22,688 nt of DNA from a virus, in IMG/VR virus record IMGVR_UViG_3300033143_006516, positions 1 through 22,688 of that record. One strand, given 5' to 3'. Both the position numbers and the translations under genes were made by a program. The notes beneath the pieces were generated by a model. That model was given only the letters and a program-made list of their open reading frames with translations. It was not told the origin of the DNA and did no database searches. Below, in pieces: positions 7,498 through 22,688 of the stretch. Each line of letters begins with the position of its first letter. Positions within the stretch are counted from its first letter, which is position 1.

Positions 7498-7500
7498 GGA

Positions 7501-7701: not shown

Positions 7702-7921
7702 TGCCATACTCCCTCATGAGCGCAACTCTATCCGCTGTATTATGTTCCTTGCAAAGAACAATATAATCTACGCGCGCACCACGATCTACTGCATAGTTTC
7801 CCCATCCAAGATCTATAAAACGCTGTGCGATTTCAGTCATATAGCTGCCGCTTATGGCATGTTCCTTACCGCATACGCGACATTTATAAACAATCGTTTC
7901 CTGATTTGTTTCTTCGTACAT
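7694..7921 (-). CDS. Small zinc-knuckle protein
   Basis: 75 residues with AAGGAG 8 nt before ATG 7921. C14-x2-C17 (YKCRVCGKEH) and C57-x2-H60 (LCKEH) are spaced 40 residues apart, a plausible single zinc site. Between them is an alpha-helical piece and a GNYAVDRGARVDYIVL strand. Proteins of this type are common small phage genes, perhaps binding nucleic acid. It follows the methylase gene by 10 nt. No family recognised. Confidence 0.55.
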   Translation of the reverse strand: MYEETNQETIVYKCRVCGKEHAISGSYMTEIAQRFIDLGWGNYAVDRGARVDYIVLCKEHNTADRVALMREYGNG

Positions 7922-7931
7922 AGACTGCTCC

Positions 7932-8849: not shown

Positions 8850-8861
8850 AAGTTTCCCCTT

Positions 8862-9350: not shown

Positions 9351-10723
9351 AAGTTAATACTTCCCATTGTAAGATTTCTAATCATCATTTTCTTACCGCT
9401 AAAATAGAGATCAACCTGTCCAAGTTCTCCATTACGATTCTTCGCAACATCAATCTCAACAATATTCATTCGTTCCGTTTCTTTGTTGTAGTACTCATCC
9501 CGGTAAAGAAACATCACGATATCAGCATCCTGCTCGATGTCACCACTCTCCCGCAGATCCGAAAGAGTTGGTTTCTTAATTGCACGTTGCTCCACATTAC
9601 GATTCACTTGGGCATTAGCCCACACAACCGTATTTAATTCTTTCGCCAGCTTCTTCATTCCGCGACTTATCTGCCCGACTTCGAGAACTCTATTTCTCTC
9701 CCCCTCCTTCCCCCGCATCAGCTGGAGGTAATCAATTGTAATTAAATCAAAATGCCCATGCTCAGAGAACAGCCGATGTACCTTCGATTCAAGCTGAGCA
9801 ATGGACAGCGCAGCCGAAGTGTCGATGAACATAGGCAGGACAGATAGCTCACCAATAGACTTGTTTAGTAGTTCCCAATATTGATCGCTAAGAGAAAACG
9901 GATGTTCAATGCTCTTGAAGTCGGTCTGCATCCTGGCAGACAACGCACGAATAGTTAACTGTTCGGCAGTCATTTCCAGATTGAATGTGGCAACCTTCTT
10001 CTCAACTTTTGCAACGTTCAATCTTATCGACTGCTCCAGAACGCTCTTGCCCATGCCTGGTCTTGCCGCGCAAATGACAAGGGAGCCGGGAGAGATCCCC
10101 TGCAGTAATCTATCCATGTCGAGGAGGCCCGTCTTTAATCCTGCTTTTTCACGCGCATCCTTGTCGGTCCGTCTTAGGCTCAGTGTTTCCAGGACATCAA
10201 CACTGACATCGTAAGAGCTTTGTGGAGAGTCTTTATCATTATCGGCCCCAATCGATCGCGCCCGTTCCAGGGTATCGGCAATAATGCCATCTGTACTTTC
10301 CTCAGCATCAAAAGCGTTTGTCGCCATACGACCCGCAAGCGCAATGATTTGCCGCTTGTTATACAAGTTAAGCACAATTTCTTCGTAGCCTAGGATATTA
10401 GTGGAGGTCGGAACGGCCGTTAATAGGCCAATAAGTTTGTCCTCTTTCTCAATCCCTTTACCACGAAGCTCGTCGGCAACAGTGATGAAGTCTATTGGCT
10501 GTCTAGCTGCCCGAATTTTTTTAATTGCTTTGAATGTGGCGCGATGAAAACCATCGAAGAACGCTTCGGCCGTAAGCGTCAGTTCTGCCAAACGATCAGA
10601 ATCAATAAATATAGATCCAAGCAACGCCTCTTCTGCTTCATAGTTATGTGGTGGAAGCTGTTCTACTTCTTGAACGCCGGCCGTATGGCCGTTGGATCGG
10701 CTATGGTTCGTGGTTGATGTCAT
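9347..10723 (-). CDS. dnaB: Replicative DNA helicase DnaB
   Basis: 458 residues with AGGGAG 9 nt before ATG 10723. The N-terminal domain (about 23-135) has the DnaB signature PPHNYEAEEALLGSIFID. The RecA-like C-terminal domain has AARPGMGKS (219-227, Walker A), LITIDYLQLM (327-336, Walker B), ANAQVNR in place of the more usual ALSQLNR (369-375), LRESGDIEQDADIVMFL (390-406) and KNRNG (428-432). It should form a hexamer that unwinds DNA 5' to 3' at the phage fork. Length is normal. It follows the initiator gene by 6 nt, the classic phage order of initiator then helicase. Confidence 0.95.
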   Translation of the reverse strand: MTSTTNHSRSNGHTAGVQEVEQLPPHNYEAEEALLGSIFIDSDRLAELTLTAEAFFDGFHRATFKAIKKIRAARQPIDFITVADELRGKGIEKEDKLIGLLTAVPTSTNILGYEEIVLNLYNKRQIIALAGRMATNAFDAEESTDGIIADTLERARSIGADNDKDSPQSSYDVSVDVLETLSLRRTDKDAREKAGLKTGLLDMDRLLQGISPGSLVICAARPGMGKSVLEQSIRLNVAKVEKKVATFNLEMTAEQLTIRALSARMQTDFKSIEHPFSLSDQYWELLNKSIGELSVLPMFIDTSAALSIAQLESKVHRLFSEHGHFDLITIDYLQLMRGKEGERNRVLEVGQISRGMKKLAKELNTVVWANAQVNRNVEQRAIKKPTLSDLRESGDIEQDADIVMFLYRDEYYNKETERMNIVEIDVAKNRNGELGQVDLYFSGKKMMIRNLTMGSINL

Positions 10724-10729
10724 ATTTAA

Positions 10730-11689
10730 TTACTCCCTGATTAGCTCTTTTTCTTCTTCTCGAATCGCCCTTACAGACTTAGCGATTTCAATATTCATTT
10801 TGTCAACGGACATTCTTGTCATGTGAATATATCCACCAGGGATTCGGTTCACTATTTCATCGTATCCGTATTTTGACATTTCCTCAAGTGCAGTTTTAGG
10901 CTTCTTTGCTCCACTGTCAATCATGATCGCTTTGATCGTCTTTTGGATCTCAGCAACGCCAGGCCACGCATGATGTGGATGATAGACATAGCCATGGGAT
11001 TTTTTCCAAGTCTGCATAATATCAACAATAGACGGCCGTGCGTTCTTGTCCCTGCCTTTCCAGAAACCTGACCACCAATAATTAGGACGATTTTCAAAAG
11101 CATATCGTTCGAGAACCGCCGGTCCCTCAACGCCAGCGCGGAACAGCTTTGCGATCTTATATTCATCCTCATCAAGCAGAAGAAGAGCAGACAGTTTACA
11201 GACGTGACAAACAGCAGACGCAAGCTCCTGCATAGCACCAGAAGTTTCGTCATACCAGATAGTAATTTCTTCCGGTTTACCACCGTTACCTGAAACCGCT
11301 GTCGTTTCAGGATCGACAAACGACAGCCCCTTCTTAAGATCTTCTTTTTTCTTCTTAGTATATATATATATACTAAGAAGGCTGTCGTTCCTGTCGTTCC
11401 TGTCGTTTGTCGTTTCAGGAATAGGGGAAAAGACATGATCTTCGTCCATCATCAAAGCGCCAAAAGATATTGAATCTAGCGTTTTGAAATAGCGACTGCC
11501 ATCATTCTTTCGCCTGTATGTTTCGTACTTTTTGCCTTTATAAATATCAAGTTCTTGAATGTATCTTTGTGCAGATCTCAGTGTAACACCAAGCGAATCT
11601 GCAAACTTTTGCACATCAACTCGTACCAGGGGGGATTGTGTTAATCCCCGTTGCACTTCATGAAATAATAATTTCGCATGTTCTTTCAT
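10730..11689 (-). CDS. Putative replication initiator with N-terminal HTH
   Basis: 319 residues from ATG 11689, chosen because AAGGGG lies 8 nt upstream; ATG 11695 is only 2 nt from it. Residues about 24-47 (VDVQKFADSLGVTLRSAQRY...) are a helix-turn-helix. A low-complexity linker follows (NDRNDRND near residue 97, then basic KKKK). The C-terminal 200 residues are helical and Trp-rich (YWWSGFWKGRDKNARPSIVDI), with a CxxC at VCHVCK. I do not recognise a catalytic site. First gene of the operon, directly before dnaB, and containing repeated 9-mers and a 30-bp palindrome in its own coding sequence, it resembles phage initiators of the lambda O type by organisation, not by clear sequence likeness. 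Confidence 0.6.
   Translation of the reverse strand: MKEHAKLLFHEVQRGLTQSPLVRVDVQKFADSLGVTLRSAQRYIQELDIYKGKKYETYRRKNDGSRYFKTLDSISFGALMMDEDHVFSPIPETTNDRNDRNDSLLSIYIYTKKKKEDLKKGLSFVDPETTAVSGNGGKPEEITIWYDETSGAMQELASAVCHVCKLSALLLLDEDEYKIAKLFRAGVEGPAVLERYAFENRPNYWWSGFWKGRDKNARPSIVDIMQTWKKSHGYVYHPHHAWPGVAEIQKTIKAIMIDSGAKKPKTALEEMSKYGYDEIVNRIPGGYIHMTRMSVDKMNIEIAKSVRAIREEEKELIRE
11299..11420. repeat. Iteron-like 9-mers and 30-bp palindrome inside initiator gene (possible origin)
   Basis: On the plus strand TGTCGTT occurs at 11300, 11383, 11392, 11401 and 11408 and in inverse form at 11319. Three copies are tandem CTGTCGTTY 9-mers (11382-11408). TGTCGTTTCAGGA occurs twice (11300-11312 and 11408-11420). 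Between the two groups lies an AT-rich stretch with a perfect 30-bp palindrome (11351-11380; arms CTTCTTAGTATATAT). Repeats plus AT-rich DNA within an initiator gene is the plan of the lambda origin. Confidence 0.55.
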
Positions 11690-11726
11690 AATCATTACCC
11701 CTTCGCTAATTTTGCTCAGTCAACAC

Positions 11727-11755
11727 AGTATACAGTATCAGTCCGTATGTTGCAA
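11727..11755 (-). promoter_or_regulatory. Main leftward promoter of replication operon
   Basis: Minus-strand TTGCAA (11755-11750), 17-nt spacer, TATACT (11732-11727). Start is predicted near 11720, about 30 nt before ATG 11689. The spacer begins with CATACGGACT, shared with the rightward promoter at 11959, so both are probably controlled by one regulator. Confidence 0.65.
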
Positions 11756-11958
11756 CCTTTTATGAGTAGATAAAACAAAAGCAACAAGCTCAAAGCGACC
11801 TCAAGGGGAAAGAGGCCAGGATGTTCCGGGAGGACTTCCAGTATCGAACTTGTTGCCATGCTTCCTCGTTAGAGGAAATGAGCAGATCCACTATAACCTA
11901 TGCCGGATACCGTGGCAAGATCTACAAAACGCCAGATTAGCGATTACGCACTAATTAC
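11756..11958. other. Divergent control region with several hairpins
   Basis: No ORF. GCAACAAG (11781-11788) pairs with CTTGTTGC (11849-11856), enclosing CCTC (11799-11802)/GAGG (11812-11815). Next comes TTCCTC-GTTA-GAGGAA (11862-11877), a perfect 6-bp stem with a tetraloop. The region lies outside both predicted transcripts if the two promoters are right, so it may be a small RNA, a protein-binding region or a folded DNA element. I see no match to a known family. Confidence 0.35.
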
Positions 11959-11986
11959 TTGCGTCATACGGACTATGTGTTATACT
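11959..11986 (+). promoter_or_regulatory. Rightward promoter before 12111 gene
   Basis: TTGCGT (11959-11964), 16-nt spacer, TATACT (11981-11986). The spacer begins CATACGGACT, as in the leftward promoter. Predicted transcript starts near 11993 and has a leader of nearly 120 nt with a strong hairpin. Confidence 0.6.
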
Positions 11987-12023
11987 CCTTATATGGTTTC
12001 GTGGTTGGGCCATAATTGAACTC

Positions 12024-12073
12024 CTCGTTAAACGGGGCGCACTTCTCATAAGGGTGCGCCCCAGGCGAACGAG
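12024..12073 (+). promoter_or_regulatory. Two-part hairpin in mRNA leader
   Basis: GGGGCGCAC (12034-12042) and GTGCGCCCC (12054-12062) form a 9-bp GC-rich stem with an 11-nt loop. Outside it CTCGTT (12024-12029) pairs with AACGAG (12068-12073). It sits between the promoter and the AAGGGG ribosome site; no T-run follows, so it is more likely a stability or translation-control element than a terminator. Confidence 0.5.
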
Positions 12074-12110
12074 CAGCCACAGGAAACAGATCCAAGCAAG
12101 GGGAAACTAC

Positions 12111-12497
12111 ATGGATGAAAAAGTAAAAATACTCGACGCATACGAGGTTTACTTCCAAACATTTGGAAACAGTCTCCAAACGAGAGTCACCATTCTAAGC
12201 ACCGAGTTCTACGATGAGGCATCACCAGTCAAGCTAATCGAGCCGGGCCGAACAATATTAATCGGCAAGCTCGAACCAGAGCTAAAGCGCCTATTCGCTC
12301 ACGTAGGCCGGCCAACGCTCAACGAAAGAACTGCCACAACCAAGCGCCCAGGTGGAGTTTTCTCAACCAGAGCATACGATTCGTTGCGCCTCTACCTGTT
12401 TGGTGATAGCCTTGATACAGACGAGCCTAGAGTCCGGCTCAACAAGCGGAAAAAGAAGCAACCGATCTTCCGTGATGTCGAGGTGCAACCTAGCTGA
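12111..12497 (+). CDS. Unknown early rightward protein
   Basis: 128 residues, ATG 12111 with AAGGGGAAA upstream. The frame is open further upstream but that part would lie within the leader hairpin, so I take 12111. The N-terminal half is beta-rich (KILDAYEVYFQTFG, RVTILSTEFYD, GRTILIGKLEPELKRLF); the C-terminal tail is basic (VRLNKRKKKQPIFRD). First gene on the rightward transcript, from a promoter that shares its spacer motif with the leftward one, so an early regulator is possible. No family recognised and no HTH apparent. Confidence 0.55.
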   Translation: MDEKVKILDAYEVYFQTFGNSLQTRVTILSTEFYDEASPVKLIEPGRTILIGKLEPELKRLFAHVGRPTLNERTATTKRPGGVFSTRAYDSLRLYLFGDSLDTDEPRVRLNKRKKKQPIFRDVEVQPS

Positions 12498-12626
12498 TAG
12501 TACCGCAAAATTATATAGTCCTAATTCTCTTCCTATCCTTTGTTATGAGCCGCGTTACTCCTCTAGCGCGGCTCATCCTCTCCAATAGTCCCGCAAAACT
12601 ATACACCCCCCAATAGTCCCGCAAAA
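12497..12626. repeat. Iteron-like repeats ATAGTCCCGCAAAA
   Basis: Three direct copies of ATAGTMCCGCAAAA at 12497-12510 (one change), 12585-12598 and 12613-12626, each followed by an AT-rich TATA-like tail. Start spacing is 88 and 28 bp. The first copy begins at the last base of the stop codon of the preceding gene. Repeats of this size next to AT-rich DNA are typical of initiator binding sites. Confidence 0.55.
12545..12576 (+). terminator. GC-rich hairpin after 12111 gene, weak terminator candidate
   Basis: ATGAGCCGCG (12545-12554) pairs perfectly with CGCGGCTCAT (12567-12576) over a 12-nt loop, 48 nt after the stop. No T-run follows, so termination is uncertain; it may protect the 3' end or be part of the repeat region. 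Confidence 0.4.
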
Positions 12627-12643
12627 TCTATTAGTCGATCAGA

Positions 12644-12671
12644 GATCTTTGCAATAACAATTACAAAGATC
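12644..12671. repeat. Inverted repeat GATCTTTG
   Basis: GATCTTTG (12644-12651) and CAAAGATC (12664-12671), perfect 8-bp arms with a 12-nt AT-rich centre and a GATC site in each arm. It separates the ATAGTCCCGCAAAA repeats from the 11-bp array. Confidence 0.6.
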
Positions 12672-12696
12672 AAACTGTTCTGAATAATTTATATTT

Positions 12697-12751
12697 ATCC
12701 CAAACATATCCCACTTTTATCCCAAACATATCCCAAACATATCCAACGTTA
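12697..12751. repeat. Five 11-bp tandem units (ATCCCAAACAT), origin-like
   Basis: Units start at 12697, 12708, 12719, 12730 and 12741. Units 1, 3 and 4 are identical (ATCCCAAACAT); unit 2 is ATCCCACTTTT and unit 5 ATCCAACGTTA. Spacing is exactly 11 bp, about one helical turn, so bound proteins would line up on one face. TTATCCCAA at 12695 and 12717, and TTATCCCAT at 12900, resemble DnaA boxes with two mismatches to TTATCCACA. Confidence 0.7.
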
Positions 12752-12766
12752 TCTCATTATGAGATA
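12750..12766. repeat. Palindrome TATCTCA-TTA-TGAGATA
   Basis: Perfect 7-bp arms around TTA directly after the 11-bp array. Typical size for a dimeric repressor site; it may be part of the origin or an operator. Confidence 0.5.
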
Positions 12767-13344
12767 TACTCATGTATTTATTTTAGTTCATTGAAGTTCT
12801 TATGTTCTATGTCTTAAATCAGTCAGAATTCAGCCATAGCAAATCAAGAAAAAGAAATTAGCAGTTCCGTTCTGAAACAATTCATACGATTCTGTTCACT
12901 TATCCCATCTCCCAGGATTATCACCACACGATCGTATTCCCTAAATATCCTCCATTGAGAACAATCTCTCCTAAGTTCAATGTTCTCCATTTAGAACAAA
13001 CGAGCAGAGAGTCCCAATTTAAGGCAATTCCATAGCTGCTGAGCGTTTGACCCTGAGATCGGCCTAAGCACGAGAACAGATCCAGTCTACAAACAGAACC
13101 AATTCCAGTCTCTTCTGTCATTTACCCCGGCCCAGCCAGGCGCGGCGCGGCCCTCTCTCCCAACACAGTGTCGATACAAAGCGTGTTGAGAGTCCTTAAA
13201 CTCCGCAATTCCATAGCTGATGATCTAGTCTCCGGCGACGAGTGTTCCACACGCCGCCAACCAGGGAAGGGGAGGGGGACTACTTGTAATGGTGTGCGAA
13301 GCGCACCGCTCCGCCATGTCGCAGGAGCGACAGAAGAAAGAGAC
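12767..13344. other. Gene-free stretch with short repeats
   Basis: No supported gene. GCAATTCCATAGCTG occurs exactly twice (13024-13038 and 13205-13219), each preceded by GAGAGTCC about 15 bases earlier. GAGAACA (12957-12963) and TGTTCTC (12981-12987) form an inverted repeat. GTGCG-AAG-CGCAC lies near 13292 and GTCGC-AGGA-GCGAC near 13318. Along with the arrays on both sides this looks like an extended replication or partition control region; no function can be assigned. Confidence 0.4.
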
Positions 13345-13494
13345 CCGCCAGGATGCAGCGATCCGCCAGGATGCAGCGATCCGCCAGGATGCAGCGATCC
13401 GCCAGGATGCAGCGATCCGCCAGGATGCAGCGATCCGCCAGGATGCAGCGATCCTTCAGGATGCAGCGATCCGCCAGGATGCAGCGATCCGCCA
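13345..13494. repeat. 18-bp minisatellite, eight units
   Basis: Eight head-to-tail 18-bp units (CCGCCAGGATGCAGCGAT) from 13345 to 13488, plus 6 bases of a ninth. Seven are identical; unit 7 (13453) has TT for GC near its start. Each unit junction makes a GATC site, so GATC recurs every 18 bp. All three plus frames remain open through it, encoding RQDAAI, PPGCSD or ARMQRS hexapeptides, an effect of an 18-bp period. I see no good ribosome site for any of them. Confidence 0.95.
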
Positions 13495-13542
13495 ACCCGA
13501 TTATGAGCAAAAAACGAGTTTCCAATTTGCCCCCCTTAATAG

Positions 13543-13571
13543 TTGCTCAATACGTAAAAAGGAGGTAGAAT
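13543..13571 (+). promoter_or_regulatory. Promoter before accessory block
   Basis: TTGCTC (13543-13548), 17-nt spacer, TAGAAT (13566-13571). The sequence after the -35 box is AATACG, close to the CATACG of the two divergent promoters. Start about 13578, 56 nt before ATG 13634. Confidence 0.5.
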
Positions 13572-13633
13572 ACTTTGTGGGCGGATGCTCATAAAGTTAG
13601 CAATTTTATAGTTATACAATAGGAGATTGAAAC

Positions 13634-14113
13634 ATGACAAACCAACCGCAGACCGAGACCAAGACATACGCCGCAGTATTATTCTTAGATCCCGCACACG
13701 CTACCCCATTTGTTTATTTAGCTATGGTAGAGGAAACCAATAGCTACAGCTCTTTTTATGGACTTGAGAATAAAATGTCTGAAAACGGCAGGCAAGAGTA
13801 CGCCCTCAGATTATGGCAAGATCAAAACTTCCCTATCATGGAGATCTCGCCCGAAAACATGCCCACCGTTGAAGAACTCGCCCGCACCGTATCCGAATAC
13901 ATGGAAGTAAAAGATCGATACTTGACCGCTTGCGCTGGCAGCCCTAACCCCAATGGCTATATTTTTGACGTGACCGCCGCATACTTGCAGGCATATACAC
14001 TTGTAAGATACGAAGCGATCCACCTAAGCGACGATACGCCCCCGCAGGCGATGATCGATCACCTAGACAAAAAGATCGCCGCACTTCTTGACCAATTGCA
14101 CGAAGTTAGATAA
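13634..14113 (+). CDS. Unknown accessory protein with NQPQTET N-terminus
   Basis: 159 residues with TAGGAGA 8 nt before ATG 13634. Its first residues MTNQPQTET are nearly the same as those of the next gene (MKNQPQTET), and the DNA behind this is a 21-bp exact match (13639-13659 and 14173-14193). The body is soluble and acidic: a beta start (YAAVLFLDPAHATPFVYLAM), a helical middle (EELARTVSEYMEVKDRYL) and a C-terminal helix (AMIDHLDKKIAALLDQLHEV). No motif recognised. First gene after a promoter, cotranscribed with the SLOG/DUF4326 fusion, so it may act with it. GATC sites are very dense (eight in 480 bp). Confidence 0.6.
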   Translation: MTNQPQTETKTYAAVLFLDPAHATPFVYLAMVEETNSYSSFYGLENKMSENGRQEYALRLWQDQNFPIMEISPENMPTVEELARTVSEYMEVKDRYLTACAGSPNPNGYIFDVTAAYLQAYTLVRYEAIHLSDDTPPQAMIDHLDKKIAALLDQLHEVR

Positions 14114-14132
14114 CAGACCCGCATCATTTATA

Positions 14133-14156
14133 GGTGTGCTCCACATGGAGCGCACC
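14133..14156 (+). promoter_or_regulatory. Hairpin just before the fusion gene
   Basis: GGTGTGCTCC (14133-14142), loop ACAT, GGAGCGCACC (14147-14156): 10 bp with one T-G wobble, 11 nt before ATG 14168. The GGAG ribosome site follows right after the stem. It could limit translation or mark a processing site. Confidence 0.5.
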
Positions 14157-14167
14157 CTGGAGAACCA

Positions 14168-15595
14168 ATGAAAAACCAACCGCAGACCGAGACAACCGCC
14201 AAGACAAAAGATCACCACGATCTCGCCATGATTTTACCCCCCGCATTTTTAAGCGAGACAACGACCCACGACATAAACGCCGAGATCGATCGCCAACTTG
14301 CCCGATTTATTGAACGAACCACAAAGCCAGTTGTGATCCACCTACCCGACAATAAACGCAAAGCCTCCGATTATCTTCACAACGCAGTAAAAAAATACAC
14401 CAGGATCACCGCCAAGACGTACCACCCCCGATACAAAAACAACGACAAAAAACACAACGCAAACGCCAAACGCCGAGCATTAGGGAACTTGATCACCAAT
14501 AGCGATTATCTAATGGTACTTGAAGGATCTACCAGAGCCCTGAGCATAGGCGATAATGATCTGCTGAACATGGCACGAGCGCACGACGTAAAGATCATCA
14601 ACCGCAAGATCAAGATCACGCCCGACACGCCACGCGAACCAACCCCGCTAAAAGATCAGCCAAAAAAATCACAACCGATCAAGCCCGCTGCTGCCTACCG
14701 CGTGAACCTGAACCAATACACGAACGGAAAAAGACGCTGGAATACCTTGCAGGATTGCATAGATGATCCGCACGTATCACGCCCGACAGCCGCGATCTAC
14801 TGCGGCCGAACACACAAAGCGCGAAAGGCGAAAGCATCACCCCTAGCAAACTACAACACCAAAGGCACAACGGCCGAAAATATAGCCGCATACAGAATCG
14901 ATCTAGACCGCAAGATCAAAGCCAATGATCCCGAAATTATGGCAGAATTACGAAAGATCGAGCCAACGACCCCGTTAATATGTTATTGTGATAACCGGAA
15001 AAATTGCCATACCGACGTAATACGAACCGCCGCCGCATATATCCACAAACAAGACGCGAAAAACCAAGCCTATTTTAACAAAGCCGTAAAAAAATATACC
15101 GCCGACATTGACACCAACAACGACAAGATCACACTATCCGCCATGCTCCGCCAACGTGAAACGCTCCGCCAACAGTTAAGCCAGCTGGACACCAGGATCA
15201 GCAAAGCCCAAAACGTAACCCGCGAAATTACATATATGATCAGTGGACATCTTGACCTAACAGAAAACGAGTTTCAACTTCATTATATGCGCCGCATAAT
15301 GGACGCGGCAAAAAACCCACAAGCACTATTTGTGCTTGGAGATGCTAAAGGTTGCGATCAAAAAGCAGGCAGCCTTTTACAGATGCTAAAAGCTGGAGAT
15401 CGATCTACTAAATACCACGCAGGCGAATTATCCCGTAATTATCACAGCACCATAAAAGAGGTCGGAGGATTCGCGCACTATACCGCCAGAGATGCCGCCA
15501 TGACAGCCGCAAGCAATACAGACATCGCTTGGGTGAGAGAAGGAAAAGAAAGATCAGGCACAGCGAAAAACATAGCCCGCAGAGCTTCCAAGTAA
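14168..15595 (+). CDS. SLOG-like / DUF4326-like / SLOG-like fusion protein
   Basis: 475 residues. Part 1 (about 52-150) reads as a Rossmann unit: PVVIHLP, then NSDYLMVLEGSTRALSIGDN and DLLNMARAHDVKII, resembling SLOG/TIR-like nucleotide binders. Part 2 (about 178-295) fits DUF4326: YCGR...(K), a helix (ENIAAYRIDLDRKI), then PLICYCDNRKNCHTDVI with C272, C274, C280 and H281. A coiled-coil link follows (RQRETLRQQLSQLDTRISK, 328-346). Part 3 (about 353-472) starts YMISGHLDLTENEF, has VLGDAKGCDQKA (389-400) and ends RDAAMTAASNTDIAWV..GK..SGTAKNIARR, as in a group of SLOG-type proteins. SLOG proteins bind nucleotide or NAD-derived ligands; the catalysis here is unknown. A/C-rich and full of GATC. 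Confidence 0.65.
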   Translation: MKNQPQTETTAKTKDHHDLAMILPPAFLSETTTHDINAEIDRQLARFIERTTKPVVIHLPDNKRKASDYLHNAVKKYTRITAKTYHPRYKNNDKKHNANAKRRALGNLITNSDYLMVLEGSTRALSIGDNDLLNMARAHDVKIINRKIKITPDTPREPTPLKDQPKKSQPIKPAAAYRVNLNQYTNGKRRWNTLQDCIDDPHVSRPTAAIYCGRTHKARKAKASPLANYNTKGTTAENIAAYRIDLDRKIKANDPEIMAELRKIEPTTPLICYCDNRKNCHTDVIRTAAAYIHKQDAKNQAYFNKAVKKYTADIDTNNDKITLSAMLRQRETLRQQLSQLDTRISKAQNVTREITYMISGHLDLTENEFQLHYMRRIMDAAKNPQALFVLGDAKGCDQKAGSLLQMLKAGDRSTKYHAGELSRNYHSTIKEVGGFAHYTARDAAMTAASNTDIAWVREGKERSGTAKNIARRASK

Positions 15596-16284
15596 AACGA
15601 GCACCCGCTACCCGCACCAGATAACGACCAAGATCAGCGCAGACACAGCGCCCGAACTTTACAAAACGAATAACTAGACCAACACAGCAAACGACCGCGA
15701 AGCGATCCGCTATTGACCGGACTTATTGTAAAGGGAAAAACGCAATAAAGCCCCACGCCAGACCACGCGACAGTAGGATCAAAGGATCAGCCAAGCCCCG
15801 TATAAACGCCTAGACATCAGATCGCCCCTCAAATTATGCAAAACATCGCCTAATTTTAGCGACATCACGCCCGACATGAGGAAAACGCGCATACGGCAAC
15901 GCTGAGAAATCCCACCGCTAGTTATTTCCATATGGACGCACCGCCGAGAGTAAGATACTAGGACTCGACAACGAGAACCACCCGAAAACGACGGAATAAT
16001 GATCAACGATGATCTATGCGGCATCAGCTAGAGAAAGCCTAACCAGAATGATAAAACGCCCACGATTTTATAGCGATCATCTTCATGACTTGCCGTAGAA
16101 AACGGAACGAAGAAGGGAAACGCCGAGTAAGCCAGAACGACGCGAACAGGAAAAAACAAAGATCATGGGCATAGTAATTTTAGTTATTCGCTACTAGAGG
16201 AACGGCAGACTAGCACACTAACGAAAAAGCGATCACCCCCCCTATTTTATCCACCACTTACAACCACTAGGAGAACCCAACCCG
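15596..16284 (+). other. 689-bp gene-free stretch, possibly decayed coding DNA
   Basis: No ORF that can be supported. Base composition is like the flanking A/C-rich genes, and the frame continuing from the fusion gene (after its TAA) shows short open runs of up to about 33 codons broken by TAA or TAG. Ten GATC sites occur. TTATCCACC near 16249 is one base from a DnaA box. This may be an eroded gene or a regulatory spacer; no promoter stands out. Confidence 0.35.
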
Positions 16285-16710
16285 ATGCAGTCAATTTACA
16301 TTGTAGGAACCATCCCACCAGGTAAAGAAGAAAACATGATCACGCAGCTTGACAACTTGTTGCTGGAGATCGAAAGCCCATCAATTTTATATCATGGAGA
16401 TGATCACACAGCCGCCACGCTCCGCCAATATGCACAAGGCGAAAGGTTACCCATGCTCCGCGACATGGACCGCCACCCCACGATTTTATATAGTCGAATG
16501 TTATCCGCCAGCCGCTTAATTATTCTTGACTACCCCATAGCCGGCAGCTTGAAGGCACACCGTACCCGCTCCGCCTATACGCACCAGGCAAAGACGGCCG
16601 TCATACTTCCAACGAAAGAAAACAGACGGCCCCACGCGACCCCCCCCAAAGTTTACGCGACAGGAAAAAAATCCAACCGGAGATCGCGCCGCAGGTTGTC
16701 CCCCCGATAA
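16285..16710 (+). CDS. Small Rossmann/SLOG-like protein with basic tail
   Basis: 141 residues; TAGGAGA about 8 nt before ATG 16285. It begins with a beta strand and loop (SIYIVGTIPPGKEE), and the centre has SRLIILDYPIAGSLKAHRTRSAYTHQAKTAVILP, a strand-helix-strand pattern like the end of a SLOG or nucleoside deoxyribosyltransferase-like Rossmann fold. The last 30 residues are strongly basic (KKSNRRSRRRLSPR), suggesting contact with nucleic acid. It could be a partner of the 475-residue fusion. Fold assignment is tentative. Confidence 0.45.
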   Translation: MQSIYIVGTIPPGKEENMITQLDNLLLEIESPSILYHGDDHTAATLRQYAQGERLPMLRDMDRHPTILYSRMLSASRLIILDYPIAGSLKAHRTRSAYTHQAKTAVILPTKENRRPHATPPKVYATGKKSNRRSRRRLSPR

Positions 16711-16957
16711 TTTAGCGCCAAGGAAAAAAAGCTACTGGCTGAAGAATAAACCAAACCCGCAGCCAGGCGAAAGATTGCACCGTGTTCGTACACGGCAATC
16801 ATAATACTATATATTTCTCAAAAAAAATTTTTTTTCGCTGCGCTGGCGGGGAAGTGATCCGGAGCTTACATAGTTCTGTTAAAAACAGGATGATCTTTCC
16901 GCTCAGCGTCTAGTACGTATTAGTACAACCATTTAGTTATTACGAGGAGATACTCAC
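16711..16957 (+). promoter_or_regulatory. Leader of macro/NADAR pair: hairpin and A8T8 tract
   Basis: ATTGC(A)CCGTGT-TCGT-ACACGGCAAT (16774-16799) forms a 10-bp stem with one bulged A. A perfect A8T8 tract lies at 16820-16835, followed by CTGTT-AAA-AACAG near 16880. The region probably ends the previous transcript or controls the next; no promoter is convincing. A8T8 should stiffen or bend DNA. The 24 bp at 16926-16949 recur at 17394-17417. Confidence 0.4.
16926..16949 (+). repeat. 24-bp direct repeat flanking macro gene, copy 1
   Basis: Identical to 17394-17417, where it covers the last codons and stop of the macro gene plus the Shine-Dalgarno of NADAR. Here it ends in the Shine-Dalgarno of the macro gene. 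Distance is 468 bp, equal to the macro gene plus leader, as expected from a tandem duplication or cassette insertion. Confidence 0.9.
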
Positions 16958-17404
16958 ATGATTAGCTTTACTTCAGGTAATCTATTTAACTCTAACACAC
17001 AAACGATTGTGAACACTGTCAATCTAGTTGGGGTCATGGGGAAGGGCATTGCTCTTGAATTTAAGCATCTATACCCGCCAATGTATCGAAATTATCGAGC
17101 AATGTGTCAATCGGGTAGCTTTGAAATTGGCATGTTAGATCTGCATAAATATCGCGAACCGTACCATTGGGTTCTTAATTTTCCGACAAAGCGTCATTGG
17201 CGCGATCTTTCCAGGCTTGACGACATCGAGTGCGGTTTAGTCGAGCTTGCAGCAACCTACCGGCAGCTTGGCATCACATCAATTGCCATGCCTCCCTTAG
17301 GGTGCGGGAATGGAGGGCTTCAGTGGGATAATGTCTATCCACTGATTTTCAAGCACCTTTCAGATGTCGATATACCGATTGTATTGTATGCACCAACCAT
17401 TTAG
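16958..17404 (+). CDS. DarG/TARG1-type macro domain ADP-ribosyl hydrolase
   Basis: 148 residues; CGAGGAG before ATG 16958. It is a single macro domain: GNLFNSNTQTIVNTVN (7-22), GVMGKGIALEFK (25-36), YPPMYRNY (39-46), WVLNFPTKRHWRD (71-83), SIAMPPLGCGNGGLQW (108-123) and VLYAP at the end. The NFPTKRHW block is characteristic of the DarG/TARG1 branch, which removes ADP-ribose from DNA thymidine or from acidic residues; K78 lies where I recall the DarG catalytic lysine to be. DarG is usually beside DarT, but no DarT-like gene is visible. The NADAR gene follows 21 nt later, so the two likely act together in removing ADP-ribose. Confidence 0.9.
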   Translation: MISFTSGNLFNSNTQTIVNTVNLVGVMGKGIALEFKHLYPPMYRNYRAMCQSGSFEIGMLDLHKYREPYHWVLNFPTKRHWRDLSRLDDIECGLVELAATYRQLGITSIAMPPLGCGNGGLQWDNVYPLIFKHLSDVDIPIVLYAPTI

Positions 17405-17417
17405 TTATTACGAGGAG
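17394..17417 (+). repeat. 24-bp direct repeat flanking macro gene, copy 2
   Basis: Exact second copy of 16926-16949. It spans codons for the last Thr-Ile, the TAG stop, and the CGAGGAG site that serves the NADAR gene. Confidence 0.9.
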
Positions 17418-17425
17418 GTAATAAA

Positions 17426-17923
17426 ATGTGGATCAATGAATTTAGCAATTTTTATTTGCCCGCACACAAGCATATTTTGTATGAGCATATAGCTTACCCC
17501 AGCATTGAGCATTTCTTTGTGGCTATGATGACCACAGACATCGCCGAGCGTTTAAAGATTGCCGGTATAGAACATCCGGCAGAGGCTAAGAAGTATGGTA
17601 AAGGATTCGCTCGCCGAAAGGATTGGCACAGAGTAAAGCGAAGTGTAATGCTTTTCGCGCTGCGTCAGAAGTTTACAGATCCTAGCATGAAGGAAGCCCT
17701 GTTAGATAGTGGAGATCAAGAGATCGTTCATCTAGTGCATTGGCATGATAATTATTGGGCGAGTTGTGTTTGCCCAAAATGTGCCGATAAAGAGAAGGGT
17801 AATATGCTTGGCATTCTGCTTATGAAAGTACGCGCCGAAATATCAGATCACAGCAATATCACTCAATACCTGAGTGATTGGCATCAAGCGTATTATGGCA
17901 CACCCTGTAAGGTTTTAGTGTAA
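17426..17923 (+). CDS. NADAR family protein (YbiA-like)
   Basis: 165 residues; CGAGGAGGTA before ATG 17426. It matches NADAR along its length: EFSNFY (5-10), YPSIEHFFVAM (24-34), PAEAKKYGKGFARRKDW (51-67), VKRSVMLFALRQKF (70-83), HWHDNYWAS (105-113) and GNMLGILLMKVR (125-136). An insert CVCPKC (114-119) with three Cys may bind metal. NADAR enzymes act on ADP-ribose-type N-glycosidic bonds; some reverse ADP-ribosylation of guanine in DNA and serve as antitoxins to DarT1. The pairing with a macro domain in a phage operon suggests both thymine- and guanine-linked marks could be removed. Confidence 0.85.
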   Translation: MWINEFSNFYLPAHKHILYEHIAYPSIEHFFVAMMTTDIAERLKIAGIEHPAEAKKYGKGFARRKDWHRVKRSVMLFALRQKFTDPSMKEALLDSGDQEIVHLVHWHDNYWASCVCPKCADKEKGNMLGILLMKVRAEISDHSNITQYLSDWHQAYYGTPCKVLV

Positions 17924-17934
17924 TTAGTTTTAGC

Positions 17935-17962
17935 GAGGAATCGGCTTGAGCGCCGGTTCCTC
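17935..17962 (+). promoter_or_regulatory. Intergenic hairpin before 17976 gene
   Basis: GAGGAATCGGC (17935-17945), loop TTGAGC, GCCGGTTCCTC (17952-17962): 11 bp with one wobble. Directly followed by AAGGGGA, the ribosome site of the next gene. No T-run, so not an obvious terminator. Confidence 0.5.
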
Positions 17963-17975
17963 AAGGGGAATTTTC

Positions 17976-18164
17976 ATGTTTCAACAACCACGTATCACCG
18001 TATCCGCTAGTTTTTCATCAATGTCCACTCCTCCCATTCAGGTCGTTTACACTCAGGCTGAGGAAGAGATCCGCCCGTCAAAAAGTGACCGGCAGCTTTC
18101 CCACCGGCACGACCGTCGCAATACGGCCGCAGAACTGAAAGTTTTGGAGGTAATCAGCCTCTAG
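17976..18164 (+). CDS. Small unknown protein
   Basis: 62 residues from ATG 17976, with AAGGGGA 8 nt upstream. The frame opens earlier at a TTG (17946) but that lies in the hairpin. The N-terminal half is Ser/Pro/Thr-rich and polar; the C-terminal half is basic (SDRQLSHRHDRRNTAAELK) with a short hydrophobic end. No family recognised. Its boundaries, with hairpins on both sides, match the other small genes here. Confidence 0.4.
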   Translation: MFQQPRITVSASFSSMSTPPIQVVYTQAEEEIRPSKSDRQLSHRHDRRNTAAELKVLEVISL

Positions 18165-18171
18165 GATCATC

Positions 18172-18214
18172 TTTCACGCCCTGGTCTATGCAGGCCAGGG
18201 CGATTTTATCAACC
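18172..18214 (+). terminator. Hairpin with TTTTATCAACC tail, copy A
   Basis: CGCCCTGGTCT (18177-18187), loop ATGC, AGGCCAGGGCG (18192-18202), then ATTTTATCAACC. The 11-bp stem and short T-run fit a weak intrinsic terminator or attenuator. Bases 18172-18214 match 18576-18618 at 42 of 43 positions. Confidence 0.6.
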
Positions 18215-18243
18215 CGCTTTTCTAGTTAACGAGGACACAACCA

Positions 18244-18573
18244 ATGCTCACCATTGAATTAATCGAAGAGATTGCGCGTAAAGCAAGTTTAGAAATAGTT
18301 GATGTAAATCTCCACCCATACGGCCGCGATTGGCAGGCCATAGTCTACTTCACCGAAGAATTCGGCATCTCGCTTCTCTACAAGTACCCATACTTAACGC
18401 CTATGGACGAGGAGGATTTTAGCTTCGGACTTGTCAAGCGTGATTCAAGTGCCGATGAAGGGTTTTCCCTTTTAGCTGAAGATTACTGCACCTACGATAT
18501 TGACATGACGGATCTTGTTGGCAATTTGAATGTAACCATATGGGACGCTGACATACCTTACGTGTTGTTTTAG
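18244..18573 (+). CDS. Small acidic unknown protein
   Basis: 109 residues with CGAGGA about 8 nt before ATG 18244. Very acidic, with about 26 Asp/Glu against six Lys/Arg. It has a helical N-terminus (MLTIELIEEIARKASLEIVD), beta strands (WQAIVYFTEEFGISLLYKY) and an acidic C-terminal part ending in a hydrophobic DIPYVLF. No recognised family. Strong acidity in a small phage protein is compatible with a DNA mimic, but ordinary acidic proteins are common. It stands between copies A and B of the same hairpin, so it looks like a self-contained expression unit. Confidence 0.5.
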   Translation: MLTIELIEEIARKASLEIVDVNLHPYGRDWQAIVYFTEEFGISLLYKYPYLTPMDEEDFSFGLVKRDSSADEGFSLLAEDYCTYDIDMTDLVGNLNVTIWDADIPYVLF

Positions 18574-18575
18574 TA

Positions 18576-18618
18576 TTTCACGCCCTGGTCTATGTAGGCC
18601 AGGGCGATTTTATCAACC
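18576..18618 (+). terminator. Hairpin with TTTTATCAACC tail, copy B
   Basis: CGCCCTGGTCT (18581-18591), loop ATGT, AGGCCAGGGCG (18596-18606), then ATTTTATCAACC. Nearly identical to copy A; the only change is in the loop (C to T), which keeps the stem intact. Confidence 0.6.
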
Positions 18619-18666
18619 ACGCCGAAACCCGGCACAATAAGTCTGCGATGCAGACGAGGAGTAGTT

Positions 18667-19176
18667 ATGAAACTACACAAAGTAATGATCATTGGTAATT
18701 TAGGTCGAGATCCGAAAGAAGTTCGTTTACCCAGCGGTTCAACCGGCAGCGTTTTTCCCGTTGCAGTCAACGACGAGTGGACAGATTCAAACGGCAACCG
18801 GCAGAAGGACACAACCTGGTACACAGTTCGTGTCAGCAACAACCAGGCTGAGGCTTGTAACCGCCACCTCAAGAAGGGCCGCAAGGTTCTTGTCGAAGGG
18901 AAAATGCGCTCGAATGATTGGGGCAATCCGCGCATCTGGTTCAAGACTGACGACACTGAGCGTGCAGACCCTCGTACAACCTTCGAGCTGCTCGCCTGGA
19001 CCGTCGAGTTTGGTGAAAATCCTCAGCAACAATCTGCTGTTAGCGATTCCGAAGAGTTCAGCTCCCAGGATCAGAAGGTTGACGAACCGACCACGGACTT
19101 CACCACCGTCACGATGTCAGACGGTACAGTTCATCACGGGGAAGAGGACGATGGAGAGGACGGGTTCCCGTTCTAG
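18667..19176 (+). CDS. ssb: Single-stranded DNA-binding protein
   Basis: 169 residues; CGAGGAG 7 nt before ATG 18667. Residues 1-110 show the bacterial SSB OB-fold: MKLHKVMIIGNLGRDPKEVRLPSG, VFPVAVNDEWTDSNG, TTWYTVRVSNNQAEACNRHLKKGRKVLVEGKM. Then comes a flexible Gln/Ser/Asp-rich linker and an acidic tip DDGEDGFPF, comparable to the DDDIPF tip that recruits partner proteins. It coats single strands at the phage fork and probably works with DnaB and VRR-NUC from the opposite operon. Being on the other strand implies separate timing or dosage from the helicase. Confidence 0.9.
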   Translation: MKLHKVMIIGNLGRDPKEVRLPSGSTGSVFPVAVNDEWTDSNGNRQKDTTWYTVRVSNNQAEACNRHLKKGRKVLVEGKMRSNDWGNPRIWFKTDDTERADPRTTFELLAWTVEFGENPQQQSAVSDSEEFSSQDQKVDEPTTDFTTVTMSDGTVHHGEEDDGEDGFPF

Positions 19177-19189
19177 TATATTCAAGCAA

Positions 19190-19230
19190 AGCGAGCAGGA
19201 GTATTTCCTGCTCGCTCGTTTTATCAACCA
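19190..19230 (+). terminator. Hairpin with TTTTATCAACC tail, copy C
   Basis: AGCGAGCAGGA (19190-19200), loop GTATT, TCCTGCTCGCT (19206-19216), then CGTTTTATCAACCA. The stem sequence differs from copies A and B but length, position after the stop, and the TTTTATCAACC tail are the same. Confidence 0.6.
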
Positions 19231-19256
19231 ACCACAACTAATCGAGGAGTACAACC

Positions 19257-19823
19257 ATGTCAAACATTTGGGATAACAAAGATCACCGCTTCTACACATT
19301 TCATAATCGCAGCGCCTTCCTCCATGCAGAGTATTGCTTGCCAGGACAGGACACAGACTTTCGTAAGATCAAGATTTGGGCCGGTAAAACGCAGAATGGG
19401 TCTACCATCCAGGATGCTAGTCACTATCTGGACTTTCCAGACGTTCGTTTCATGTGCTTCAACATTCTTCGCGGCATTGAGCCTGGCCCAGAGAACGCTT
19501 GGACTTCCGTCAAGGGCATTGTATCAAAGGGCACACCCACTTGCCGCGTCATGAAGATCCGACGAGGCAGCTTGGCCGACAGTAAGAAGAATCGTGCAGA
19601 CGAATCGCACAAATACTTCTTAACCGTTGGTGTTGGCCCAGGCAGGGAAACGAACGGAGTCGTTCTGCCCGATGCCAAAGCGCCTAAGGAGGCATGGACA
19701 TTCACCACGCTCAAGTACAGCCTAAGCGAACTACAGACGTTCGCCTTAGAGCTTCAAGCATGGGTGAACGGCATCACAGCCGCAGAAATCGAGCAAATCC
19801 GCAAAGCACATCTGGAGGTATAG
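19257..19823 (+). CDS. Unknown protein next to SSB
   Basis: 188 residues; CGAGGAG before ATG 19257. No recognised motif. Beta-rich opening (HRFYTFHNRSAFLHAEYCL), a middle with KGTPTCRVMKIRRGSLADS, then YFLTVGVGPGRETNGVVLPD, and an amphipathic helix at the C-terminus (AAEIEQIRKAHLEV). Soluble. It shares ribosome-site style and hairpin spacing with ssb and precedes a large unknown gene by 3 nt. A role in replication or recombination is a guess from context alone. Confidence 0.5.
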   Translation: MSNIWDNKDHRFYTFHNRSAFLHAEYCLPGQDTDFRKIKIWAGKTQNGSTIQDASHYLDFPDVRFMCFNILRGIEPGPENAWTSVKGIVSKGTPTCRVMKIRRGSLADSKKNRADESHKYFLTVGVGPGRETNGVVLPDAKAPKEAWTFTTLKYSLSELQTFALELQAWVNGITAAEIEQIRKAHLEV

Positions 19824-19826
19824 GTT

Positions 19827-21461
19827 ATGGATCATACAGAATCGTCACTCGAAACTTTGTTAAACAATGCGATGGAGGCGAATCACGTCAGGCGGTTTGT
19901 TATTAAAAACCTCACCTACGTCAGCAAAGATTCGCTCATTGATTGGATAATGACTGAGGGGAATATGTCCCCCAAGAGGTTCCAACTGCTTATGGATCAT
20001 CTGGATAGCGCCCGTGGTTTGAGCAACTTAGGGACAGAGCGCGAGTTCATGCCGCCAGATGTTAATTACACAGAGCGCGGAACGTATTACCAGGTTGTCA
20101 ACCCGCCCGACATTGAGGCCGTGAAAGAAGCTCTTTCCTCGTTCGACTTCTACACAAGAGCGTACAACCAACGTGCTTACCCTGAATTCTATCTTTACGA
20201 CTCCGTGATTTACGAGCATGTTTGGAATCATATGTACGTCGGCATAGCACAGGATAGTCGTATGCAGCTCGTTAAGAACATCGTCAATGCCGTGCTTGAT
20301 GCTGGAGAGTGGACATACCAGCCCGATCGTCAGCTTTTCACCGCATATCCTAAATGGACACCGACTCCTACAGCAAAGATGGATCAGGAGTTTGATGGTG
20401 ATAACTCCTTCTCCGACAGTGGTTTCTACGACATCGTGGCTCAGGATGCTTACGGCCGTTCCTATTACTCAAAGCCGGATCTTTTCCCGCAGGATTTTCA
20501 AGAGTATGTCGAGCAAATGGCTGAACTCTACAAGTACAATCATGTGCAAGATCGCTTCATCCCCAAGCCCATTGAGATGCCCGACAATATCGAGGATATT
20601 GGCCGGCAGATCTTGTCCGATGATGGTAATATGGTTTTTAGTGATCATGGCTATCAGGTCATGCCATTGCAGACGATCCGAGATCGTCTGCTTGATCATG
20701 GGATTAACCTGCCAACGTCTAAAATCAAGTTTCAGCTTATGGGTAGTACCGGGGAATGGGCGAAACCTCTTGTTATCAACGGCTTTGATCTTTACACGGA
20801 AGAGTATTGGAGCGATCACTTTAGTTTTGGCACACCAAACGAACGGTTCGTATGTGTTCAAAAACAGCGAATGACCGAGGCTTCTCTTCAACACAGCCAC
20901 AAGGCATCATTCGCCGCAGGTTTACCTGTTACGCTTGTCGGATTCATCTTGAATCCCGCATCAGAGGAGTTGATATATCTAAACATGGTAGGTCCACGAA
21001 ATAGTGTCCGGGCAAATTGGGCAGAGCTTATGAGTAAGAAGCAGCACTACTACGAAGGAGAATACTTCAAAGTCGCAAATGCAAAGAATCACAAGCGATT
21101 TGAATCAGAACTCCCATCGGGTTTATACCAGATGATCTTAATCAACCATGATGCTTCACCAACTGAGCTAACGCCGCTAGATAGCAAATTCTATCTGCTG
21201 ACCACCGAGAGATCTGACGCAATGCCCAATCACTTCTTGGCAACGCTAGATCGTTTCCTAAAGGTTCCTATCATGCCGCATTGGGCCGAGTATCTTTGGG
21301 TACTAGGTCGTTCAATCGGGATGATTACTTACACAGGTAACCCAAACAAACAAATCGGCGGCACATCCTGGACGATCAAGCGCGGCTTAAGCAGTACTGA
21401 TTGGGGAACACTCATATCCGCAGGTGTTGCCTCAAAGGATTTAGTATTTTCATGTTCGTAG
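19827..21461 (+). CDS. Large unknown protein
   Basis: 544 residues, ATG 19827 just 3 nt after the previous stop, with GGAGGT 10 nt upstream. Tyr- and Asp-rich and soluble; no membrane segments. Blocks that may help a search: FDFYTRAYNQRAYPEFYLYDS, NSFSDSGFYDIVAQDAYGRSY, EDIGRQILSDDGNMVFSDHGY and KFYLLTTERSDAMPNHFLATL. No Walker, nuclease or methylase motif seen. The last codons overlap the next gene by 10 nt. It belongs to the SSB to DUF6094 cluster and is probably conserved in related elements, but I cannot assign a function. Confidence 0.55.
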   Translation: MDHTESSLETLLNNAMEANHVRRFVIKNLTYVSKDSLIDWIMTEGNMSPKRFQLLMDHLDSARGLSNLGTEREFMPPDVNYTERGTYYQVVNPPDIEAVKEALSSFDFYTRAYNQRAYPEFYLYDSVIYEHVWNHMYVGIAQDSRMQLVKNIVNAVLDAGEWTYQPDRQLFTAYPKWTPTPTAKMDQEFDGDNSFSDSGFYDIVAQDAYGRSYYSKPDLFPQDFQEYVEQMAELYKYNHVQDRFIPKPIEMPDNIEDIGRQILSDDGNMVFSDHGYQVMPLQTIRDRLLDHGINLPTSKIKFQLMGSTGEWAKPLVINGFDLYTEEYWSDHFSFGTPNERFVCVQKQRMTEASLQHSHKASFAAGLPVTLVGFILNPASEELIYLNMVGPRNSVRANWAELMSKKQHYYEGEYFKVANAKNHKRFESELPSGLYQMILINHDASPTELTPLDSKFYLLTTERSDAMPNHFLATLDRFLKVPIMPHWAEYLWVLGRSIGMITYTGNPNKQIGGTSWTIKRGLSSTDWGTLISAGVASKDLVFSCS

Positions 21462-21904
21462 TATTCGGCTCCATTCACGAAGTCGATGGCGTGATTTGCT
21501 TCACATTGGAAGAACACAACGCAGAGCGATTGGTTGAATCGTTGTCAGCAAGTGATCTTACATGGGAGCAAATCCGCTACAACCACATCGACGAATACAG
21601 GGGTAATCATCCTAATTGGGATTACCCATTCTACGTCAAGTTAATTGAAGATTATGGGCATGTAATCAAGCCTATTTGGATTGATTTTGAATCGCTTGAT
21701 TCAGACACCATTCCACCTATAACGAGGAGTAAATCTTATGAGACTAGCAGGAACAGCGAAAGCGGGGTTTTACCCGCTTCCGGAAATGATGATACCCCCG
21801 ATTCTATCTACGATCTCCAGGATGAATGGAGAGAGGACATCGAAAATATTAGATCCGGGATGCGGCGAAGGAGTCGCATTAACCGGCATAGCAAGGGGAG
21901 CTAA
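21452..21904 (+). CDS. Acidic unknown protein, C-terminus runs into next gene
   Basis: 150 residues from ATG 21452, overlapping the previous gene by 10 nt. Residues 1-90 (MFVVFGSIHEVDGVICF, then EHNAERLVESLSASDLTWEQIRY) look like a compact, acidic domain ending near DTIPPI. Residues 91-150 overlap the DUF6094 gene in another frame by 167 nt and are Ser/Arg-rich with no domain character. A TAA at 21720-21722 in another frame would give a natural end at residue 90. Either an indel has removed the proper stop, or the tail is a tolerated read-through. Function unknown. Confidence 0.5.
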   Translation: MFVVFGSIHEVDGVICFTLEEHNAERLVESLSASDLTWEQIRYNHIDEYRGNHPNWDYPFYVKLIEDYGHVIKPIWIDFESLDSDTIPPITRSKSYETSRNSESGVLPASGNDDTPDSIYDLQDEWREDIENIRSGMRRRSRINRHSKGS

Positions 21905-22688
21905 CCTGCTCCCATTTGGTTGCGAACTGCACGAACAACGTGCATCCTACGCGGCTGATGCCGTGAAAGTAATCGATAACACGACCAGCGCCAGTGTAAT
22001 CAATGATGATTACAGGAATATCCGCACCGAGCGAAAGTCATTCACCGTGTTGTATCTCAACCCCCCATACGACTTTGACAAAGAATCAGGGCGGGAGGAA
22101 TACACCTGGCTAAAGGCAATGCGCCCATACCTTGCAGAAGGTGGCTTGCTCATCTGGATAGTGCCTGAGCGTATCCTAGCCGACAGGCTTGTGCAGCGTT
22201 ATCTCGCTTCCTGGTTTACCAGCTTACTTACGTACCGTTTCGTAGGTGATACGTACAACGCATACAAGCAGGTTGTAATCTACGGAACCGTGCGGAAGGC
22301 AGCATTACGTGCAGATATAGCCGTAACACGCAACCTACGCCAATTAGCGACGCTACACGGCGATCTACCAGAACACCCGACGTTTGTGAAACCTCTTTTC
22401 GACCTCAGCCATGTTGAGGAAGCGAAGAAGTTCTGGTTCTTTGGGATGTCCCCAAATCCAGAAGCAGTCATTGCAGAAGTTAAAGGTCATGGTATCGAAA
22501 CGCGCCCAGAGTACAAAACATATTTGTCCCCGGCGCCCAAGATTGAGCTTGACCCACTTACGCCAATGAAAATTGGACATATTGCAAGCACGATTGCCGC
22601 CGGCCATATCAACAACCAGGAGTTGATGACAGACAAAGGCCGCATCTTAATCAAGGGTTCTGTTTACAACGAGCAGGTAGTAGCCGAA
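21738..22688 (+). CDS. DUF6094-type SAM methyltransferase, 3' end outside window
   Basis: At least 317 residues; CGAGGAG 9 nt before ATG 21738. Opening RLAGTAKAGFYPLP (2-15) is typical of DUF6094. DPGCGEGVALTGIA (39-52) is the AdoMet-binding motif, GCELHE (61-66) the acidic strand, and NPPYDFD (108-114) the catalytic motif of an amino-group (N6-adenine or N4-cytosine) methylase. A later part, LLIWIVPERIL then YRFVGDTYNAYKQVVIYG, is the family's C-terminal Rossmann half. Such genes are found in phages and integrative elements, often beside a helicase, which could lie beyond the window. Possible role in protecting the element's DNA. Confidence 0.85.
   Translation, partial: MRLAGTAKAGFYPLPEMMIPPILSTISRMNGERTSKILDPGCGEGVALTGIARGANLLPFGCELHEQRASYAADAVKVIDNTTSASVINDDYRNIRTERKSFTVLYLNPPYDFDKESGREEYTWLKAMRPYLAEGGLLIWIVPERILADRLVQRYLASWFTSLLTYRFVGDTYNAYKQVVIYGTVRKAALRADIAVTRNLRQLATLHGDLPEHPTFVKPLFDLSHVEEAKKFWFFGMSPNPEAVIAEVKGHGIETRPEYKTYLSPAPKIELDPLTPMKIGHIASTIAAGHINNQELMTDKGRILIKGSVYNEQVVAE

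Follow-up and report, generated by a model that had tools for sequence, protein, structure and literature searches.

Phage gene neighborhoods that combine SLOG, Macro, NADAR, and DUF4326 domains were described in 2022 by Iyer, Burroughs, and Aravind, who proposed that phages use these proteins against soluble ADP-ribose derivatives and laid the stress there rather than on DarT (PMC9503650). Here, we analyzed a locus at positions 14,168 to 17,923 of the IMG/VR record IMGVR_UViG_3300033143_006516, a linear fragment of 22,688 bases that was taken in its entirety and is referred to below as the window. As in the published neighborhoods, the same four families lie in one phage region, as standalone genes and a DUF4326–SLOG fusion, with no match to an ADP-ribosyltransferase (ART). 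The domain combination is already known, as is the general idea for phages. Unlike the published neighborhoods, the window has a macro gene, of the DarG type, that forms an optional cassette, and a NADAR protein with an altered active site.

Phages reportedly carry orphan antitoxin-like enzymes against DarTG1, to go by the title of a 2025 study (Johannesman et al., Nat Commun 16:1598). The present locus would be similar in having an antitoxin-like enzyme without a toxin as counter-defense, but its intact-looking eraser is the macro domain, of the thymidine type, whereas DarTG1 is of the guanine/NADAR type (PMC11543638). Counter-defense against DarTG is also known from the phage ICP1, whose anti-DarT factor AdfB differs from the predicted enzymatic eraser of the window in being a 77-residue protein that appears to bind DarT directly (PMC11481870). 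Another known parallel is phi32_37 of phiEco32-type phages, a stand-alone, macro-only DarG-like protein that is 48% identical to the window macro protein; it belongs to a different phage group, and neither NADAR nor DUF4326 is annotated in the stretch inspected around it.

The macro gene (16,958–17,404, + strand) encodes a 148-residue, stand-alone DarG-type macro domain. The product matches the Pfam Macro profile (1.4e-15) and, over residues 1–147, the PADLOC DarG model (5.4e-64), and its crystal homologs are 5m3i and 5m31/5m3e (8e-39 and 1e-34), which confirms the DarG-type assignment made in a preliminary description of the locus. Alignment to the crystal sequence showed that counterparts of N22, K29, T79, K80, H82, W83, and G119 of Thermus aquaticus DarG (TaqDarG) are retained, with K78 of the window protein aligning with the catalytic lysine, K80. 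In TaqDarG, the K80A mutation abolishes activity and N22A, K29E, and G119E strongly lower it; the macro domain suffices to rescue cells from DarT when the C-terminal part has been removed (PMC5179494). Judged by this alignment, the residues important for taking ADP-ribose off thymidine are conserved in the window protein.

The structure of the locus became apparent from comparison with a close relative, referred to as the sister phage (IMGVR_UViG_3300021514_000001; 59,752 bases; IMG/VR class linear). Window positions 4895–13,454 align with one end of the sister contig and positions 13,396–22,688 with the other, at 97 to 99% identity. Both ends of this contig fall within an array of 18-bp tandem repeats, which lies at about 13,345–13,494 in the window. 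We infer from this that the contig represents a virtually complete genome that was opened at the 18-bp repeat. The segment carrying the macro gene (window 16,953–17,393) is missing from the sister, and the flanks align. In the window, this segment lies between two 35-bp direct repeats on the + strand, each consisting of CAACCATTTAGTTATTACGAGGAG followed by a start codon, the two copies being 89% identical; the sister has a single copy, ahead of its NADAR gene. The left repeat (16,926–16,960) holds a GAGGAG ribosome-binding site and the macro start codon, and the right repeat (17,394–17,428) holds the macro stop codon together with the ribosome-binding site and start of the NADAR gene, so that gain or loss of the macro gene should leave NADAR translation intact. 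Because the repeats carry the ribosome-binding site, they would form a slot in which a macro gene could be gained or lost by recombination with its neighbors undisturbed. Synonymous divergence between the two phages is 0.01 to 0.03 to the left of the macro gene, 0.21 to 0.23 in the NADAR gene, the gene for the single-stranded DNA-binding protein (SSB), and the gene at 19,257–19,823, and 0.05 further to the right; this shift is most simply explained if a recombination junction lies close to the macro locus. The preliminary description had treated the four genes as one block. The families are indeed clustered, but the block is interrupted by 689 bp without a long open reading frame (ORF; 15,596–16,284) and by a 247-bp gap, and it is not a fixed unit, since the macro gene, between its repeats, is absent from so similar a genome.

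No match to DarT (PF14487) was found at E ≤ 10 in the window or in the ~59.8-kb sister genome, nor was there any match to PF01129 (ART) in either, although a very divergent ART among the unassigned ORFs could escape profiles; the earlier statement that no ADP-ribosyltransferase is visible thus holds. A DarT gene just outside the window, which would have given the locus a normal toxin–antitoxin layout, found no support, PF14487 being absent from the apparently complete, collinear sister genome, which extends beyond the right end of the window. To place the macro protein among its relatives, we used the 50 IMG/VR contigs bearing the nearest macro proteins. DarT is present in 20 of these, in 19 cases 3 to 27 bp upstream of the macro gene, and all 20 DarT-linked macro proteins carry an additional 157 to 219 residues C-terminal to the macro domain. 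Among the 30 relatives lacking DarT, 25 have at most 66 residues beyond the macro domain, as does the window protein, which has no extension; one of the other five stands at the very start of a short contig, so that a DarT gene ahead of it may have been cut off. Hence, the macro protein resembles DarG of DarTG2 (DarT2–DarG) in its family and in having all tested catalytic and binding residues but differs in lacking both an adjoining DarT and the C-terminal DarT-binding domain and in residing in a phage cassette. The usual DarTG layout is excluded for this locus, which is not a broken toxin–antitoxin pair.

Some other arrangements were seen among the viral relatives. Four DarG-like macro proteins of 425 to 429 residues (L037, L038, L040, and L041) occur without DarT and share a different C-terminal extension, of 283 to 289 residues. 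In one viral contig (L004, 1–1525), the usual gene order is inverted, with a DarG-like macro gene ahead of DarT; this macro protein is the closest to that of the window (50–51% identity). Furthermore, phiMa_38 and phiMa_39 of Thermus phage phiMa (L064, 5318–7074) form a phage-borne DarT–DarG pair that is not annotated as such, phiMa_38 matching PF14487 at 2.2e-59.

The gene following the macro gene (17,426–17,923, + strand) encodes a member of the NADAR family, as had been proposed; its match to PF08719 (7.2e-20) is above the cut-off, and the product aligns with the core of YbiA (2b3w). The catalytic residues of Escherichia coli C7 NADAR are E88, K95, and D171, of which K95 is essential and replaceable by Arg in vitro only (PMC11543638). 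In the window NADAR, the glutamate is kept (E28), but seven residues on, where both reference NADARs have Lys, there is Met35. Moreover, His102 occupies the Glu/Asp position, V104 stands for Asn, and A112 stands for Gly. Since the window phage and the sister share ATG as codon 35, Met35 is not a sequencing error of one contig. Lys35, Glu102, and Gly112 occur in all 67 other distinct viral NADARs; a first scan pattern had demanded Lys or Met at position 35, a bias avoided in the second scan, which used patterns in other blocks that touch neither position 35 nor 102. Cellular NADARs have Lys at position 35 in 61 of 62 cases and Arg in the remaining one (the pattern used for these demanded Glu at position 102, and only its Lys count was used). 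Met at position 35 was thus seen in none of the 67 viral and none of the 62 cellular proteins, and the combination of M35, H102, V104, and A112 was found only in the window phage and the sister. Counterparts of the residues that contact ADP-ribose in the pocket of the P. nicotianae protein are mostly present (E28, G58, K59, W67, K71, D108, and W111); the sister has Asn at position 71.

The NADAR gene is under purifying selection. Relative to the sister, the ratio of nonsynonymous to synonymous substitution rates (dN/dS) is 0.14, with 12 amino acid changes compared with 23.8 expected under neutral simulation, and not one of 20,000 neutral simulations reached so low a number. Phage NADARs, T4 gp30.3 among them, have been reported to carry a His at the Glu/Asp position, and T4 gp30.3 can cleave guanine-ADP-ribose in vitro; T4 gp30.3 and YbiA, though both keep the Lys, did not protect cells from DarT1 (PMC11125620). 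The window NADAR shares with T4 gp30.3 its family and the His, but T4 keeps the essential Lys, whereas the window protein has Met35 in addition to V104 and A112. It likewise departs from the DarT1–NADAR pair (DarTG1), with no DarT in the window, His102 instead of the Asp of the last strand, and Met35 instead of the essential Lys. Based on these substitutions, the NADAR has probably lost guanine-ADP-ribose hydrolase activity. The preliminary description suggested that both types of eraser may be at work, countering host DarT defense of both kinds, with salvage of NAD+ derivatives and a ligand-making SLOG/DUF4326 protein as further possible roles; the macro domain, with its conserved active site, fits a DarT2-like target, but the claim for a guanine eraser is weakened, because the active site of the NADAR is altered, at the essential Lys and at three more near-invariant positions, in both phages.

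The 475-residue protein encoded at 14,168–15,595 (+ strand) contains a DUF4326 domain at residues 204–285 (about 14,777–15,022), matching PF14216 at 4.4e-7 (30.9 bits versus a Pfam gathering cut-off of 25). The C-terminal 125 residues (351–475; 15,218–15,592) have relatives, mostly short proteins, at 40 to 47% identity in many viral contigs and in Lak megaphages. An AlphaFold2 model of this domain, built from 15 sequences, reached a predicted local distance difference test score (pLDDT) of 93.5, and its structural neighbors (Foldseek/VIA) include the Moco carrier protein (Z 14.0), ShosA (Z 13.7), DprA (Z 12.4), LOG (Z about 11), and ThsA-SLOG (Z 7.6). The model thus confirms a predicted SLOG Rossmannoid fold for the C terminus. 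The N-terminal 200 residues gave no profile match for SLOG or another domain, and the single-sequence AlphaFold2 model of the full-length protein was uninterpretable (pLDDT 42); of the SLOG/DUF4326/SLOG fusion originally proposed, the second and third parts therefore stand and the N-terminal SLOG is unconfirmed. Relative to the sister, the gene shows few changes, with a dN/dS of 0.12. In another viral locus (L080, record G062, around 14,024–14,992), two DUF4326 matches lie in a 3033-codon open frame, adjacent to a match for NADAR; this frame may encode a giant ADP-ribose-processing polyprotein.

The stretch that follows (15,596–16,284) has no ORF longer than 82 codons, is 99.4% identical in the sister, and is GATC-rich and A/C-rich. 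An Rfam search of it gave no match, and neither a decayed copy of a neighboring gene nor a recoded ORF nor an Rfam RNA found support as its explanation. The next gene (16,285–16,710, + strand), the closest one upstream of the macro gene, encodes a 141-residue protein that is not an ART by profile. It had been described as Rossmann-like, which could not be confirmed, the profile search with this protein yielding nothing significant (PF23156, at E 0.094, is noise).

In the remainder of the window, the left part carries genes for tail-like proteins, and a leftward replication block encodes a DnaB helicase and a D12 adenine methyltransferase (7932–8849); a rightward block starting at 13.6 kb contains the eraser-related genes, SSB, and a large protein without assigned function. 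The 18-bp tandem array has one GATC per unit and lies at the point of divergent transcription, where the sister contig breaks; it is possibly an origin or a regulatory region. Positions 13,600–16,300, which take in the ORF-less gap, contain 45 GATC sites compared with 9.6 (standard deviation 3.0) expected from dinucleotide composition, in a phage that encodes its own D12 adenine methyltransferase; the + strand is A/C-rich there, with an AT skew of about 0.4. Two consecutive genes have the same NQPQTET peptide and identical DNA at their starts (13,634–13,680 and 14,168–14,200), a pattern that duplication of a common leader would produce. Next to the NADAR gene, there is a second cassette (18,172–18,618, + strand), in which a gene at 18,244–18,573 lies between two near-identical 43-bp, terminator-like direct repeats with hairpins (18,172–18,214 and 18,576–18,618).

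Taken together, we lean toward the view that the macro gene serves as an anti-DarT2 counter-defense gene: it occupies an exchangeable cassette and encodes an orphan DarG-type eraser whose active site looks intact. The phage would produce the stand-alone, presumably catalytically intact ADP-ribosylhydrolase in the infected cell, where it would remove the ADP-ribose that a host DarT2-type toxin attaches to thymidines in single-stranded phage DNA and so let phage replication go on, acting as the eraser half of an antitoxin without the toxin-binding half. The adjoining NADAR would be selected for, yet probably not for hydrolysis of guanine-ADP-ribose, and the DUF4326–SLOG protein may belong to the set of phage proteins already suggested to act on soluble ADP-ribose derivatives by binding or processing them. 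Several points weigh against this view. In a tree of macro domains, the window protein was placed without support; DarG-like macrodomains can act on other substrates; and both expression and activity of the macro protein are predictions from sequence. Moreover, the view presupposes a host that carries DarTG, whereas in the search for a host, bacterial genomes queried with the NADAR gave no match and the relatives found for the DnaB and terminase of the phage are distant.

The main rival, which we consider possible though less probable, is that the macro, SLOG, and DUF4326 proteins bind or degrade soluble NAD+-derived signals, such as cyclic ADP-ribose or ADP-ribose-1''-phosphate, generated by host TIR, SIR2, or RES defenses, DarT being irrelevant. 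Such a toolkit was proposed from a survey of 21,191 viral proteomes, in which the four domains co-occur and fuse in phages (PMC9503650). Our own counts agree: of 50 records with NADAR, 11 also have DUF4326, in several cases as the immediate neighbor of NADAR, and 11 of 79 loci, including near-copies of one phage, have a macro gene no more than 10 kb from NADAR (counted by a local profile search, which replaced weak Pfam Macro matches mostly below the cut-off). The SLOG fold, with ThsA-SLOG, a sensor of cyclic ADP-ribose, among its structural neighbors, points the same way. The macro protein, however, is of the DarG subclass with conserved thymidine-eraser residues rather than of the ThsA or MacroD type, and its gene comes and goes independently of the DUF4326–SLOG gene.

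For the NADAR, we tentatively suggest a pseudoenzyme kept by selection, which would bind but not cleave. It would either sequester an immune signal of the ADP-ribose type or block an ADP-ribosyltransferase of the host, and erasing would be left to the exchangeable macro cassette. That it is instead an active guanine eraser with a compensated lysine, the pair covering both DarT1 and DarT2, seems unlikely. Purifying selection and the in vitro activity of T4 gp30.3, with its His, would agree with this, but the essential nature of K95 in C7 NADAR, the absence of Met35 from the 67 viral and 62 cellular relatives, the failure of T4 gp30.3 and YbiA to protect cells even with their Lys, and the further loss of K71 in the sister argue against it. 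It is very improbable that the macro and NADAR genes are what is left of a DarTG-type toxin–antitoxin system that has lost its toxin or has it beyond the ends of the window. DarTG does occur in some phages (Thermus phage phiMa and the 20 viral contigs), and the window is a fragment; yet all DarT-linked viral macro proteins carry the C-terminal domain that the window protein lacks, the gene adjoining the macro gene is not DarT by profile, the collinear sister genome has no DarT, and the macro cassette has no room for a toxin.

Of the preliminary description, the observation was thus partly confirmed and the interpretation partly supported. The comparison of viral relatives yields an architectural rule, namely that the C-terminal domain is present with DarT and usually absent without it, by which antitoxins and orphan erasers of viruses can be told apart. 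The NADAR represents a conserved phage protein whose activity should not be taken for granted. Finally, the window phage and its sister constitute a clean natural pair, one phage in two forms of which only one has the DarG-type eraser, and can be used to ask if a macro domain that lacks a toxin partner shields phages against DarT2.

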